A DNA stretch of 64,000 nt from Pseudomonadota bacterium (GTDB taxonomy: Bacteria; Campylobacterota; Campylobacteria; Campylobacterales; Sulfurospirillaceae), in contig JAGDMU010000007.1 of NCBI GenBank assembly GCA_017860615.1, forward strand, positions 194,534 through 258,533. The letters run 5' to 3'. Positions 7,259 to 62,613 of this stretch are shown piece by piece; position 1 is the stretch's first letter, and the number at the start of each line of letters is the position of its first letter. Below the pieces are notes generated by a model. That model saw only the letters and a list, made by a program, of their open reading frames with translations, was not told the origin of the DNA and searched no databases. The translations under genes and the position numbers were made by a program.

Positions 7259-8290
7259 ATGAATGACCTTTTTACCATCTTTAAGCATAATAGGCACTTG
7301 ACGCATCCAAATCTGCTTTTCCCACATCTCTTTATTGTTTTGATACCATTCAATGGTTTTACTAAGTCCCTCTTCAAAGACCACTTCAGGCTTCCACCCT
7401 AAGATACGCTCAATTTTTGACGTATCGGCAAGATGACAATCAACTTGTCCAGGGCGATCTTCATTGTAGATAATCTTCTCTTCGCCCACACCAAAAGCCT
7501 GTGCAACTTTGAGTGCGATCTCTTTAATCGAAATAGAACGCCCCGTGCCAAGGTTAAACACTTCGCCTTTCACTTTATCAAGGGGCGCTTTAATAATCGC
7601 ATCTAAACCTTTGCAAGTGTCATCCACATAAATCCAATCACGTGAGGCTTCACCTTGTCCATGCACGGTTAGCTTTTCATCTAAAAGCAGTGCTGTAATA
7701 AAACGAGGAATCGCTTTTTCAAGATGCTGACGTGCCCCATAATTGTTAAAAGGGCGAACGATGGTCGCTGGAATATCATAGGTATTGACATACGAATAGA
7801 CCAATCTATCCGCACCCACTTTAGCCGCAGCATACGGCGAAGCAGGGTTTAGCGGATGATTTTCATCCATAAAACTGCAATTCTCTGACGTACCGTAAAC
7901 CTCCGACGTAGAGATGTGAATAAACCGCTCAATGCTTTTTTTATGATTTAGTACCGCATTGGCAACCGTTTGGGTTCCAATAACATCGGTTTCAAAAAAG
8001 TTTCTATTATCGTAAATGGAGCGTGTGACATGTGTTTCTGCCGCAAAATGGACTACAATATCGCTGCGTGCGACAAGTTCTTCCACTAAAGCACTGTTGG
8101 TGACACTGCCATACCAAAATTCAAAACGCCCAGAGGTTTGATTGGGGCGAACTGGAAAGTTATCGACATTTCCCGCATACGTTAACAGATCCAATACGAT
8201 GATTTTAGCATCAGGATAGTGCTTAAAAAGATAATGTAAAAAGTTTGAGCCGATAAACCCAGCTCCACCAGTAATTAAAAAGGTTTTCAT
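7256..8290 (-). CDS. NAD-dependent nucleotide-sugar epimerase/dehydratase (RfbB-like)
   Basis: This is a 344-residue extended short-chain dehydrogenase. TGGAGFIGSNFL at the N-terminus is the NAD-binding GxxGxxG loop, LLTYAGNVDN and HFAAETHVTRSI resemble dTDP-glucose 4,6-dehydratase, and YAAAKVGAD carries the catalytic Tyr-x3-Lys. The catalytic strand reads STSEVYG where dTDP-glucose dehydratases have STDEVYG, so the substrate may be another NDP-sugar. Its likely job is to make a deoxy-keto sugar donor for the island. It ends at the hairpin element and follows the GNAT-radical SAM gene after 6 bases. Confidence 0.85.
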   Translation of the reverse strand: MKTFLITGGAGFIGSNFLHYLFKHYPDAKIIVLDLLTYAGNVDNFPVRPNQTSGRFEFWYGSVTNSALVEELVARSDIVVHFAAETHVTRSIYDNRNFFETDVIGTQTVANAVLNHKKSIERFIHISTSEVYGTSENCSFMDENHPLNPASPYAAAKVGADRLVYSYVNTYDIPATIVRPFNNYGARQHLEKAIPRFITALLLDEKLTVHGQGEASRDWIYVDDTCKGLDAIIKAPLDKVKGEVFNLGTGRSISIKEIALKVAQAFGVGEEKIIYNEDRPGQVDCHLADTSKIERILGWKPEVVFEEGLSKTIEWYQNNKEMWEKQIWMRQVPIMLKDGKKVIH

Positions 8291-46287: not shown

Positions 46288-46689
46288 ATGACACACCTCT
46301 TTACGTATGGATCATTGATGTTTGAAGACGTCTGGAATAGACTGGTTAAAGGCAATTATCTCTCGCAGAAAGCGACCTTGCACGGTTACGCCAGACGCTC
46401 TGTCAAAGGAGATGAATACCCTGTCATTTTCCAAGCCGACGAGCTTGTCGAAGGGGTCGTTTATTACGATATAAGCGAGGAAGATAGGATCATTCTTGAT
46501 ATTTTTGAAGGCGAATATTACGAACGTAAGGAGGTGGAGCTTCTGGTTAAAAATGAACCGATTATGGCATCTGTTTATGTCTTAAAAGAGAAGTACTTTG
46601 ATATTATCGACCCAAAACCGTGGAGTGAAGCCCTCTTTGCTACCGAGGGCATCAAACGTTTTTTGGTTAACTACAAAGGGTTTGCTTAA
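46288..46689 (+). CDS. Gamma-glutamylcyclotransferase-like (AIG2/GGCT) protein
   Basis: The product is 133 residues. [18 protein letters not shown] holds the YGSL substrate loop, and [16 protein letters not shown] carries the glutamate expected as catalytic acid in GGCT folds. The family cleaves gamma-glutamyl-amino acids or similar amides to 5-oxoproline. AAGGAG precedes the ATG by 7 bases. It converges with the chemoreceptor gene, overlapping by 4 bases. Confidence 0.86.
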
Positions 46690-48332
46690 ACTTTAAAGTG
46701 TCCCATAAGCTTTTGAAGATCGTTGGAGATGTTCATAAGCTCTTTAACCGCACCAACATTCTCCTCCATTGCGCCATTGGTACTTTGTGACATCTGCGCT
46801 ATGGAGCTTACATTGGTCGCCAATCCAGAGACGTTATGCGCTTGGGTTTGCGAGGAGAGGCTCATCTCGTGTGTTTTGGAGAGTGAGTCTGTCGCTTGCG
46901 CGTAAATCTCTTCCAAAAGTGTTGCCGCGATATTTGCCATCTCATAACTACTTTCAACTTGCACCACCACATTTTCCATATTTGAAACGGCATTTTTGGT
47001 CTCACTTTGAATGATTCCAATCATCTGCGAAATCTCTTTTGTTGCCACATCGGTACGATCTGCTAGCTTGCGAATCTCGTCGGCCACCACGGCAAATCCT
47101 CGCCCCGCTTCACCAGCACGTGCTGCTTCAATAGCGGCATTGAGCGCTAAAAGATTGGTCTGATCCGTAATCTCTTTAATCAAAGCCGCACTACCACCAA
47201 TACTTTGGGAGTGATGACTCAGTGTTTCAATATGCGAAGCCGAAGCCCTGACATTGCGTGTCACCTCTTCCATCTGTGTTGCGGTTTGTTTCACGACATC
47301 ACGCCCCTTTTCAGAAAGTTCCGCACTTTTGCTTGAATTGGACTCTGCCTGTTCTGAAATAAACGCTATTTCATCAATTTTCGCACTGATCGTAGCAATA
47401 TCTCGCGCTAAAGAGAGTGAAGTTTGCTCTTGCGCAGAGGCAAGTCCTTTAGAATTTTCAGAAGCATTAAGCACATGTTCCGCTTTTTGGGCCAAGACAT
47501 TGGAAGAATCAATGATGTGCAAAACGATGGCTTTAAGATTGGCTTGCATTTTAAGCACTGCACCTAAAATACTCTCTTTATTTTGAGCGCGTAAATCAAG
47601 CATCAAATCGCCATTGGCAATATGATTAGCGATTTCTGAAACTTCGCTAGGTTCTGCCCCTAATGCAGTGGAAAGATTTTTTGAAATACTCCACGCGACA
47701 ATTCCTGCTAACGCAAAAGCGATGAGAAGCAATACAATCATTAACTGTGAAAAGCTACCTGCAACCTCTCTTGCTTTGGGCGTTGCTACTTGATTTTTTG
47801 CCTCCTCATAGTCAATAAATTCATTAATAGCCCCAAGCCATGCTTTAAATGCAGGACTGGCTTGATCTAAAAGAAGCTTTTGTGATGCTTCTAATTTGCC
47901 TTGTTGTTTCAGAGCGATCACCTCAGCGATCAATGGCATCGTTTTACGCTCAATCGTTTTGATTTTTTCTAAAATAACACGCTCTTTTTCTTCAACACCT
48001 TCTCCTTTTGCAAAGATAGCATCCAGAGGTTTAGCAGACTCCTCATAAAAGCGCTCTAACCGTTTTATGTCGCTTAAAACGCTCTCTTGTGCACTCTTCT
48101 CATCCAAAAGCACCACATCTCTCAATGCAATCGCACGATCATGCACACTGCCTCTGAAATTGATGGCATAGCGCTGTTTAAGAGAGTTAACATCGGTAAT
48201 TTCATACAGCGTATCATCGATAAAATTAACTTTTTGAATCCCAATTGCCGTTACAATAAACATAAGTCCCACAACCAAACCAAAGCCACCTATGAGCTTT
48301 TGGCGTATACTCCATTGTGCAAAAAAATTCAT
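46686..48332 (-). CDS. Methyl-accepting chemotaxis protein
   Basis: The product is 548 residues with TM1 near 12-31, a helical periplasmic sensor (about 35-188) of the four-helix-bundle type, TM2 near 190-212, a HAMP-like region and a cytoplasmic signalling domain. The hairpin tip [19 protein letters not shown] is the CheA/CheW-contact signature. No CheR-tethering pentapeptide is present at the C-terminus ([10 protein letters not shown]). The ligand is unknown. SD AAGGAC precedes the start. Confidence 0.94.
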
Positions 48333-48462
48333 TCTATTGTCCTTATTTCATTCTCTATAGCATCACTATAAATCTTATTTTTATTTTAAAATGTAACGAA
48401 ATACTAACTTATAAATAAAAAATTGTCAATAGTAATTTTTATTATTTACTAAAATGCTCGAC

Positions 48463-48515: not shown

Positions 48516-49130
48516 ATGCTTGATTTAAACGATTTTGAATTTGCAAAAGCCTTGAATAATGAAGAATTTGATTATCTCAGTAAACACGCGAAACGTGTCT
48601 CTATTCCTAAAAATACAATCATTTTTTACCAAGAAGATATTTGTAAAGAGATCTTATTATTAGGACAAGGTGAAATTGAGCTTTACATGTATGGTGAAAG
48701 TGATAAAAAAATTCCACTTTATGCGCTTCACGAAGGGGAACAATGTGTGATTAATACCTCAAGCACCATTTCTCAAACGCCTGCTATTGGAACCGCACAC
48801 AGTTTAAGCGATGTAGAAGGCTGGCTGATCAGTGAAGAGGTTGTCAAATATCTTATGCACCGCTCATCACCTTACCTCAATTATGTTTTTTCCCTTTTTA
48901 CCATTAAACTTGACGCACTGGCTACGCTTATCCAAGATATTAAATTTAAAAAACTCGACAGTCGCATCTTGGAGTGGCTACGCGCGCATCCTTCACACAT
49001 TGTCCAAGCTACGCATGAAGAGATCGCAGAAGCACTCGGAACATCCCGTGTTGTGGTAAGTCGTGTACTCAAAGACCTTGAAAAACAAAATTTGCTCAAA
49101 CTCCATCGTAAAGAGATTGAAATTTTGTAA
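48516..49130 (+). CDS. Crp/Fnr-family transcription regulator
   Basis: The product is 204 residues. The N-terminal cyclic-nucleotide-binding-like barrel includes ILLLGQGEIELYMYG, and a long dimer helix follows near 125-150. The C-terminal winged helix has THEEIAEALGTSRVVVSRVL, whose second half is the recognition helix. It lacks the Fnr four-cysteine cluster (only two cysteines are obvious), so it is not a classical oxygen sensor. A GTAAC-N4-GTTAC palindrome immediately downstream, in front of the next gene, is a likely operator. Its ligand is unknown. Confidence 0.92.
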   Translation: MLDLNDFEFAKALNNEEFDYLSKHAKRVSIPKNTIIFYQEDICKEILLLGQGEIELYMYGESDKKIPLYALHEGEQCVINTSSTISQTPAIGTAHSLSDVEGWLISEEVVKYLMHRSSPYLNYVFSLFTIKLDALATLIQDIKFKKLDSRILEWLRAHPSHIVQATHEEIAEALGTSRVVVSRVLKDLEKQNLLKLHRKEIEIL

Positions 49131-49137
49131 CACTTTT

Positions 49138-49180
49138 GTAACGTATGTTACTGACAACTAAAGGTTTTTTATTTTATAAT
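49138..49180 (+). promoter_or_regulatory. Crp/Fnr-type operator and promoter of the DUF2892 gene
   Basis: A perfect palindrome GTAACgtatGTTAC (49138-49151) is followed by CTGACA (49151-49156), 18 bases and TATAAT (49175-49180). With a start near 49187 the palindrome centre lies at about -42, the position used by class II activators. Half-site length and four-base spacing are those of Crp/Fnr proteins, and such a regulator is encoded just upstream. Confidence 0.7.
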
Positions 49181-49206
49181 AACCAAAATCAAAATAGGAG
49201 CTTAAA

Positions 49207-49434
49207 ATGAAATGTAATATAGGCAAAACAGACAGAATGCTTCGTGCTATTGCAGGCGTTGCTGTGATTATTGTAGGAGTAATTTTCAACAGTTGGTTCG
49301 GGCTTATCGGTATTGTACTTTTAGCAACATCCCTCTTTCGCTTTTGCCCAGCGTATCTTCCATTTTCTATCGATACATCTAAAAATGATGAGAGCGGCTC
49401 ATGCGGTAGTGGCGGTTGTGGCTGCGGTAGATAA
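49207..49434 (+). CDS. DUF2892 (YgaP-like) small membrane protein
   Basis: The product is 75 residues. MKCNIGKTDRMLRAIAG is the family start; two membrane helices lie at about 15-31 and 35-55. The C-terminus is glycine- and cysteine-rich (GSCGSGGCGCGR) and could bind a metal. DUF2892 is the membrane part of YgaP-type rhodanese proteins. AGGAG lies 6 bases before the ATG. It has a Crp/Fnr-type promoter and its own terminator, so it is a one-gene unit probably controlled by the adjacent regulator. Confidence 0.85.
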   Translation: MKCNIGKTDRMLRAIAGVAVIIVGVIFNSWFGLIGIVLLATSLFRFCPAYLPFSIDTSKNDESGSCGSGGCGCGR

Positions 49435-49483: not shown

Positions 49484-49541
49484 CTTAAACCTTTTTTCGC
49501 TAAAATACCCCTAATTCTTACATGTAAACAAAAGGCATACC

Positions 49542-61432: not shown

Positions 61433-62613
61433 TTTTCGACCTCCACTTTGAGGGTTTTCATAAAGGCAACCAGATCATTTAAACTCTTCTCATCCAAATG
61501 CGCAAACGGTGGCATGGTTGACGTACGCACACCCTTCTCATCGCTGGTGTACCATAAAAAGTTTTTATGCGCATTGACATTATAACCCGCTACGACAACA
61601 GCACTTGGGTCAATGATTGACTCTTTAAGATAGCTTGCATTAGCGTATCCACCGATATTGGAAAGGTTTGGAGCCATGTAGTTAGGGGCATTTTTCACCG
61701 CTTTGTACTGATGACATGCCGAACAATTCTCCATCATCAGTTTTTCACCATTGCTCACATCGCCTTTGATCTCATCCAAAAGGGCTAACGCTTTAGCTTT
61801 GGCATCAAGACTCACACCAACCCAAGCACTCAGGAGTTTTGAGCCATCACGGTTTTTCTTCTCGCCATCCCAGATCGCAAAAGCGACAGGAAAACTGCCC
61901 TGAAGGCTTAAGTGCTCACTTTTAAGGGGTCGCACTAAAAGCGCACTCCACACGCCTTTGTCGTATTTCATCTCCATTACAGCAGGCTCAGCATTATCAC
62001 GAATTTGTGTCAGAGAGCGAAAACCCTCAGAGATAAAACTGCGTTGATAATCACCATTTCCCTGCTTTGCGACTTCATTTTTGTACGAAGTAAGCTCTTT
62101 GGCAAAGGCATTTTGGTTGGAAGTGTTCACTTGATGATAGACATCGCCACCGTTATTTGGCTCATAAACCTTGCCCGTTGCTTTTTGCAGATGAACGATG
62201 ACGGCTCTTCCCTCGCTACCCATACCAATGTAAGGCAATTTGTCACTTACAGTTGAGAACTGAGCTGCAAAACCATCGCCGTACGCTGTCGTACTATCTG
62301 TTGTTTGAAGGCTCTTAGTCGCATCTTTCCATTGCAGTAAAAATGCTATCGATTTTCCATCACTGAGGGTCTTTACATGTAAGATTTTAGCAAGGTTCGC
62401 TTCATTGGCTCTCACCAGTTCCGCATCGTTCATCTCGATGGTTGTTTGCGGATACACCTCAACACTTTGCTCTTTTGCTTTTTGCCAAAGAGGAGACGTT
62501 AGTCTCACTTTGGTGAGATCCTCTTTTACATGTAAAGCATTCAAACTCTGCGCCATTAAACTATTTAGCCCTAAAAGGCTCATAAATAGAAGGATCGTTT
62601 TTAATGTTTTCAT
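61429..62613 (-). CDS. Type II DMSO-reductase-family haem b subunit fused to cytochrome c
   Basis: The product is 394 residues. A signal peptide (about 1-21) precedes an ethylbenzene-dehydrogenase-type haem b domain (about 30-275) with SIAFLLQWKDATKS and FPVAFAIWDGEKKNRDG. Then a cytochrome c domain has CSACH at 297-301 and TMPPF near 366 for the axial Met. Gamma subunits of this family carry a single haem b; the added cytochrome c would pass electrons to or from a periplasmic partner. It overlaps the FeS subunit gene as ATGA. Confidence 0.9.
   Translation of the reverse strand: MKTLKTILLFMSLLGLNSLMAQSLNALHVKEDLTKVRLTSPLWQKAKEQSVEVYPQTTIEMNDAELVRANEANLAKILHVKTLSDGKSIAFLLQWKDATKSLQTTDSTTAYGDGFAAQFSTVSDKLPYIGMGSEGRAVIVHLQKATGKVYEPNNGGDVYHQVNTSNQNAFAKELTSYKNEVAKQGNGDYQRSFISEGFRSLTQIRDNAEPAVMEMKYDKGVWSALLVRPLKSEHLSLQGSFPVAFAIWDGEKKNRDGSKLLSAWVGVSLDAKAKALALLDEIKGDVSNGEKLMMENCSACHQYKAVKNAPNYMAPNLSNIGGYANASYLKESIIDPSAVVVAGYNVNAHKNFLWYTSDEKGVRTSTMPPFAHLDEKSLNDLVAFMKTLKVEVEK

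Follow-up and report, generated by a model that had tools for sequence, protein, structure and literature searches.

A perfect GTAAC-N4-GTTAC palindrome lies between the gene for a Crp/Fnr-family regulator and the gene for a small DUF2892 (YgaP-like) transmembrane protein, and is almost certainly the operator of that regulator. Comparison of genomes brings out the operator, its pairing with the regulator and the geometry of the promoter. In the explanation that we prefer, to which we give a probability of roughly 0.55, a dimer of the regulator would bind the palindrome, centred at -42.5, immediately ahead of the -35 region and in contact with it, and would activate sigma-70 RNA polymerase in class II fashion, thereby switching on the YgaP-type membrane protein as its single target. 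The signal would be a thiol-reactive sulfur species (persulfide or polysulfide) that modifies the invariant Cys77 of the regulator, with Cys43 as its likely partner, and the small protein would handle sulfane sulfur at the membrane. The window referred to below is the whole stretch of DNA that was analysed, 64,000 nucleotides in length.

Organization of the locus

The regulator (204 aa; 48516-49130, forward strand) has Pfam matches to HTH_Crp_2 (5.4e-12) and cNMP_binding (6e-8), and is followed on the same strand by the 75-aa DUF2892/YgaP-like transmembrane protein (49207-49434; PF11127, 1.7e-20). On reading the sequence, the 76-nt gap between them contains the operator GTAACGTATGTTAC (49138-49151, forward strand), which is also supported by motif scan and by conservation. 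It is followed on the same strand by a -35-like CTGACA (49151-49156), which shares the last base of the operator, and by a -10 box TATAAT (49175-49180), which starts 23 nt after the palindrome, the spacer between the two promoter elements being 18 nt. We infer that CTGACA and TATAAT form a sigma-70 promoter. The predicted start of transcription, placed seven bases after the -10 box, is at about 49187, so that the operator centre (49144.5) is at -42.5. An AGGAG on the forward strand (49196-49200), found by reading the sequence, precedes the ATG of the target at 49207. This arrangement is that given in the earlier note, whose description and coordinates of the palindrome, CTGACA and TATAAT check in the sequence.

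Other short elements occur nearby. A further GTAAC half-site, lying 11 nt before the operator, was considered as a second site and was rejected, being absent in G015, G017, G023 and others. There is a direct repeat of TTTTGTAAC (TTTTGTAACACTTTTGTAAC, 49123-49142), of which the upstream copy overlaps the stop codon of the regulator and is not retained in every relative. The sequence TTACATGTAA is present three times in the window (49518-49527, 62373-62382 and 62526-62535), compared to 0.19 in shuffled sequence, and is also found directly before the start codon in many regulator orthologues.

Conservation and joint loss of operator and regulator

The closest named relatives of this genome are Sulfurospirillum. 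The regulator was searched for in 60 relatives. Within the genus (24 genomes including this one) an orthologue with 73-100% identity is present in 16 genomes and missing from 8. Of the 16 genomes with the regulator, 15 contain a DUF2892 gene, as do 7 of the 8 without it; the two genomes in which it was not found, G019 (77% complete) and G022, were left out of the count. The exact palindrome is present 68-70 nt before the DUF2892 start in 15/15 genomes that have both genes, and upstream of DUF2892 in 0/7 of those that have the target and lack the regulator. In two genomes (G010 and G011) about 4 kb separates the regulator from DUF2892, and it is at DUF2892 that the palindrome is found. In the seven regulator-less genomes the DUF2892 promoter is GATATAATAACTC, with a different upstream half, and one of them (G006) retains one half-site. 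The association between palindrome and regulator gives a Fisher p of 6e-6 when genomes are counted as independent of kinship, which overstates their independence, because regulator and operator look to have been, and probably were, lost in only about three events within the genus.

Outside the genus, a class-wide search covered 397 genomes, of which 142 matched the regulator at E <= 1e-12, and loci were taken from the best 30 of the 142. Together with those from the search of relatives (L019-L023), the loci from the class-wide search (L140-L156) made 22 outside-genus loci that were read. In 14 of these 22, DUF2892 adjoins the regulator and points the same way, and in 14/14 of these adjacent pairs the palindrome is found 68-89 nt upstream of DUF2892, with no mismatches in 11, one in 2 and two in 1. 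The other eight loci comprise six whose stretch lacks a DUF2892 gene, one in which DUF2892 is reversed and has no site, and one in which DUF2892 is more distant and has a one-mismatch site. At the level of sequence, operator, regulator and target are thus conserved over several Campylobacterota families, with joint loss of the operator and the regulator, and the proposal that the operator pairs this regulator with this target is upheld both in the genus and beyond it.

In the genus, the operator drives DUF2892 alone, and the description of the locus as a compact two-gene circuit holds for this genome. It does not hold in some other genera, where DUF2892 comes first (for example L019, L020, L142, L145 and L146) and the regulator belongs to the operon that the site drives, which would give a feedback loop. 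One locus (L152, in G088) appeared by eye to have two such Crp/Fnr regulators in tandem (903-1502 and 1483-2109, flipped), adjoining an ArsR-like gene and a permease-like gene.

The regulator and its target

Both domains expected of the Crp/Fnr superfamily (PF00027 and PF13545) are above the cut-off in the regulator, and its AlphaFold model has the CRP fold, with moderate confidence (mean pLDDT 78, pTM 0.56). A search of NCBIfam gave nothing above threshold for either the regulator or the 75-aa protein, only sub-threshold matches. By sequence, the nearest solved structure is 3dv8 (Crp/Fnr EUBREC_1222 from Eubacterium rectale; E 2e-21), which was third in the fold search, with 28% identity in the fold alignment.

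FNR, which senses oxygen by means of an Fe-S cluster, carries N-terminal cluster cysteines. The only cysteines of the regulator are Cys43 and Cys77, neither of which is at an N-terminal FNR cluster position, and it was therefore rejected as a member of FNR. The remark in the earlier note that the protein lacks the Fnr cysteines is correct as far as it goes, but it overlooked that the two that are present are conserved: Cys77 is found in 45/45 aligned homologues and Cys43 in 38/45. The pair is not universal, because Cys43 is absent from G040 and from all six Flavobacterium homologues aligned; in the latter six the second cysteine is another one, located six residues beyond Cys77. The structure 3dv8 has cysteines aligned with Cys43 and Cys77, plus a further cysteine after the Cys77 equivalent. 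Cys77 is just ahead of the segment equivalent to the ligand-binding loop of CRP, and the loop that follows it in the model (residues 79-87) has pLDDT below 50, which gives no basis for distances. Conservation of a cysteine in the sensor domain is what is expected of a thiol-based (per)sulfide sensor, and is seen here as conservation only.

The recognition helix SRVVVSRVL reported by the earlier note is present in the translation of ORF 48516-49130. Its residues Arg178, Val179 and Arg183 were matched by eye to CRP positions 180, 181 and 185. According to the rule described for Crp/Fnr proteins in PMC1274295, Arg at CRP position 180 goes with G at the third position of the motif, and the HcpR2 motif accompanies a change of CRP Glu181, which is Pro in HcpR2. 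The second part of this rule is not strict here, because two relatives (G172 and G088) have Glu at the position of CRP 181 and yet keep the same operator.

The DUF2892 protein has cysteines at positions 3, 47, 66, 71 and 73, and ends in the tail SCGSGGCGCGR. In the 24 regulator-paired DUF2892 proteins examined, an equivalent of cysteine 47 (at 46-48) is present in 24/24, and all 24 have at least one further cysteine in the tail, which fits a thiol role at the membrane. A search of the PDB with the 75-aa protein gave no match. The YgaP-TM family to which it belongs (PF11127/DUF2892) is named after the product of E. coli ygaP.

The nature of the signal

Of the nitrosative, sulfur and redox stresses among which the earlier note left the choice open, the evidence leans to sulfur, because of the neighbours of the regulator in other genomes. 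Homologues in Flavobacterium, which are 26-31% identical, are flanked in 28/28 loci by a rhodanese gene and, on the opposite side, by a TauE/SafE exporter, the neighbours being called by sequence motif and by Pfam on examples; one locus (L111) additionally has a metallo-beta-lactamase/rhodanese protein. Two operators occur in G253, one of them ahead of DsrE, a redoxin and the regulator, the other ahead of DUF2892, DUF302 and a rhodanese. The exact GTAAC palindrome was found in none of three Flavobacterium loci tested, and inverted repeats with arms of at least 6 in five Flavobacterium loci gave no common operator. A DsrE-family gene is also located ahead of the regulator in G040. In E. coli, sulfide is reported to derepress ygaP by way of YgaV, in which two cysteines become linked (PMC9774250). 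On this comparative evidence, we put the chances that reactive sulfur is the signal of the regulator as even. The more specific suggestion, of a Crp/Fnr activator that senses persulfide or polysulfide directly via Cys77 (with Cys43 or another cysteine as partner), is present in Campylobacterota and distantly in Bacteroidetes, and is dedicated to YgaP-type and sulfur-transfer genes, is tentative, and we rate it somewhat below even. The characterised persulfide sensors are of the ArsR, CsoR, MarR, OxyR and FisR types, and to our knowledge none is a Crp/Fnr protein.

The same regulator, operator and class II activation could instead serve peroxide or disulfide stress, with a Cys43-Cys77 disulfide as the sensor. 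This would make use of the two conserved cysteines, and the divergent neighbour in genus relatives, across a conserved 25-bp element, encodes a peroxiredoxin in 8 loci and a catalase in two others (L207 by Pfam, L205 from its start); the G253 operon also includes a redoxin. The peroxidase genes are, however, divergently transcribed, have that conserved element of their own, and persist where the regulator and operator are lost, while the Flavobacterium homologues adjoin sulfur-transfer genes. A peroxide signal is therefore considered unlikely.

The 25-bp element itself, TTGTCAATAGTAATTTTTATTATTT (48423-48447), was found in 11 of the 12 genus genomes searched, with one copy in each and two in G014, and is near the regulator locus where this was examined. 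The peroxiredoxin and catalase genes of relatives diverge across it. Here a methyl-accepting chemotaxis gene (46686-48332) occupies that position, and the closest counterpart in this genome of the divergent peroxiredoxin of the relatives is only 38% identical. The element may be a peroxide-stress box that now fronts a chemoreceptor gene.

The signal could also be nitrosative stress, the regulator being of the HcpR2 or NssR type and the small membrane protein defending against reactive nitrogen. The motif of HcpR2, a regulator of Clostridium, Bacteroides and Thermotogales (Rodionov et al. 2005, PMC1274295), is given there as exactly GTAACnnnnGTTAC, the same as the operator motif here, and HcpR2 is likewise a Crp/Fnr protein described as lacking the FNR cluster cysteines. 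NssR of Campylobacter jejuni and NssA/B/C of Wolinella are Crp/Fnr proteins from the same phylum with a similar 14-bp operator, TTAACnnnnGTTAA, according to the same source. In Bradyrhizobium, an NnrR-controlled operon is reported to include a DUF2892 gene (PMC6710368).

The remaining comparisons point away from both families. The regulator is far in sequence from the Thermotoga maritima structure 1o5l, which we take to be HcpR2: with E 0.0024 it came last among the 34 sequences of solved structures listed at E <= 0.01, compared to 2e-21 for 3dv8. The target of HcpR2 is hcp, while the target here is a YgaP-TM gene, and HcpR2 has Pro where the regulator here has Val179 (PMC1274295, for HcpR2). 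The hcp gene of this genome is on another contig (C3:38375-39634) and has no site of up to one mismatch nearby, the sites listed on that contig at this level starting at 7973, 45534, 46413, 46683 and 100750. Thus the operator fits membership of HcpR2, but the target and the sequence of the regulator do not. The targets reported for NssR and NssA/B/C are globin, respiratory and denitrification genes (PMC1274295, PMC11539149, PMC6682613), compared to one YgaP-TM gene here, and the operator here has an outer G-C pair, unlike TTAACnnnnGTTAA. Membership of NssR was rejected because the outer operator bases are G and C in 29/29 operators and the target is PF11127 rather than globin. By eye, no globin, hcp or nor gene was present at the loci read. 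We regard a nitrosative signal as about as unlikely as peroxide.

Promoter geometry and the mode of regulation

The best -10 box starts 22 or 23 nt past the palindrome in 28 of 29 promoters (with ties broken towards that offset), which places the operator centre at -41.5 or -42.5 from the predicted start in 28/29. The result does not depend on the ties: when similar promoters were collapsed from 30 to 19 representatives and ties were not broken, a match of at least 4/6 to TATAAT was present at 22-23 nt in 19/19. In 2000 trials with shuffled spacers, a mean of 6.0 promoters had a match at this offset, and never more than 16 had one at any offset. WGACA directly follows the palindrome in most promoters, consistent with a -35 element. 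As judged from the predicted starts, the geometry is that of class II activation, for which a site centre near -41.5 is expected, and the position claimed for the operator centre in the earlier note is confirmed. The third base of the N4 spacer (49145) is A in 29/29 promoters, which is asymmetric and means that the spacer is not free.

Class II activation of the DUF2892 promoter by the regulator is thus predicted with good confidence. The regulator could alternatively repress this promoter by covering the -35 element and be released on signal, as YgaV is on ygaVP. The palindrome does abut the -35-like element, and E. coli YgaV is reported to repress its YgaP gene (PMC9774250). Against this, the palindrome keeps the same distance of 22-23 nt from the -10 box in different genera, which is unnecessary for a repressor site, and loss of the regulator comes with a change in the whole upstream half of the promoter, extending beyond the palindrome. 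Repression is accordingly rated as improbable.

Frequency of the motif

Exact GTAAC-N4-GTTAC occurs at two places in the 2,788,464 bases of the whole genome (2.79 Mb). The search for further exact sites proposed in the earlier note thus yielded one more, which is within a 410-aa ORF (L001). At this genomic rate, 5e-5 exact sites are expected in the 76-nt gap. With up to one mismatch allowed, the operator is the only site in the window, and shuffled sequences give 1.06. The palindrome by itself is therefore unconvincing, since about one such site is expected per window, and its position and conservation have to bear the weight. Conservation, joint loss and geometry make it very improbable that the palindrome is a chance occurrence without function, as the expected frequency of one-mismatch sites would allow.

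In the whole genome there are 66 sites with up to one mismatch, compared to 338 for the reversed control pattern. The extended motif GTAACN4GTTACWGACA has one exact match, none with one mismatch and 14 with two mismatches among the matches listed, and there may be a weak second target among the mismatched sites. Across the class, 19 of 397 genomes contain the extended motif, at 19 places in all, compared to 2 places for the reversed control, and 18 of these 19 sites are in the locus of the regulator. The remaining site (in G392, a genome with no listed match to the regulator) is inside a long ORF, which from its sequence looks like a glycosyltransferase.

Relation to known systems and significance

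A close known parallel is YgaV-ygaP of E. coli, which is likewise a dedicated, cysteine-bearing regulator beside a YgaP-type gene and is reported to respond to sulfide (PMC9774250). YgaV is an ArsR-family (SqrR/BigR homologue) repressor of a rhodanese-TM protein. By contrast, the regulator here is a Crp/Fnr protein and a probable activator, and its target is a stand-alone TM protein.

The operator sequence is already known from HcpR2, and its pairing with this branch of regulators and a DUF2892 target was not found in the literature searched, a search that was weak on the term Crp/Fnr and thin on subscription papers. GTAAC-N4-GTTAC alone does not identify HcpR2, because regulators with different targets use it.

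With one site, one target, a defined operator and two cysteines as candidate sensors, the locus makes the signal of an undescribed branch of the Crp/Fnr family testable by a single gel shift and a single reporter. Membrane proteins of the YgaP type are widespread, and a dedicated, conserved regulator tells when the cell needs one.
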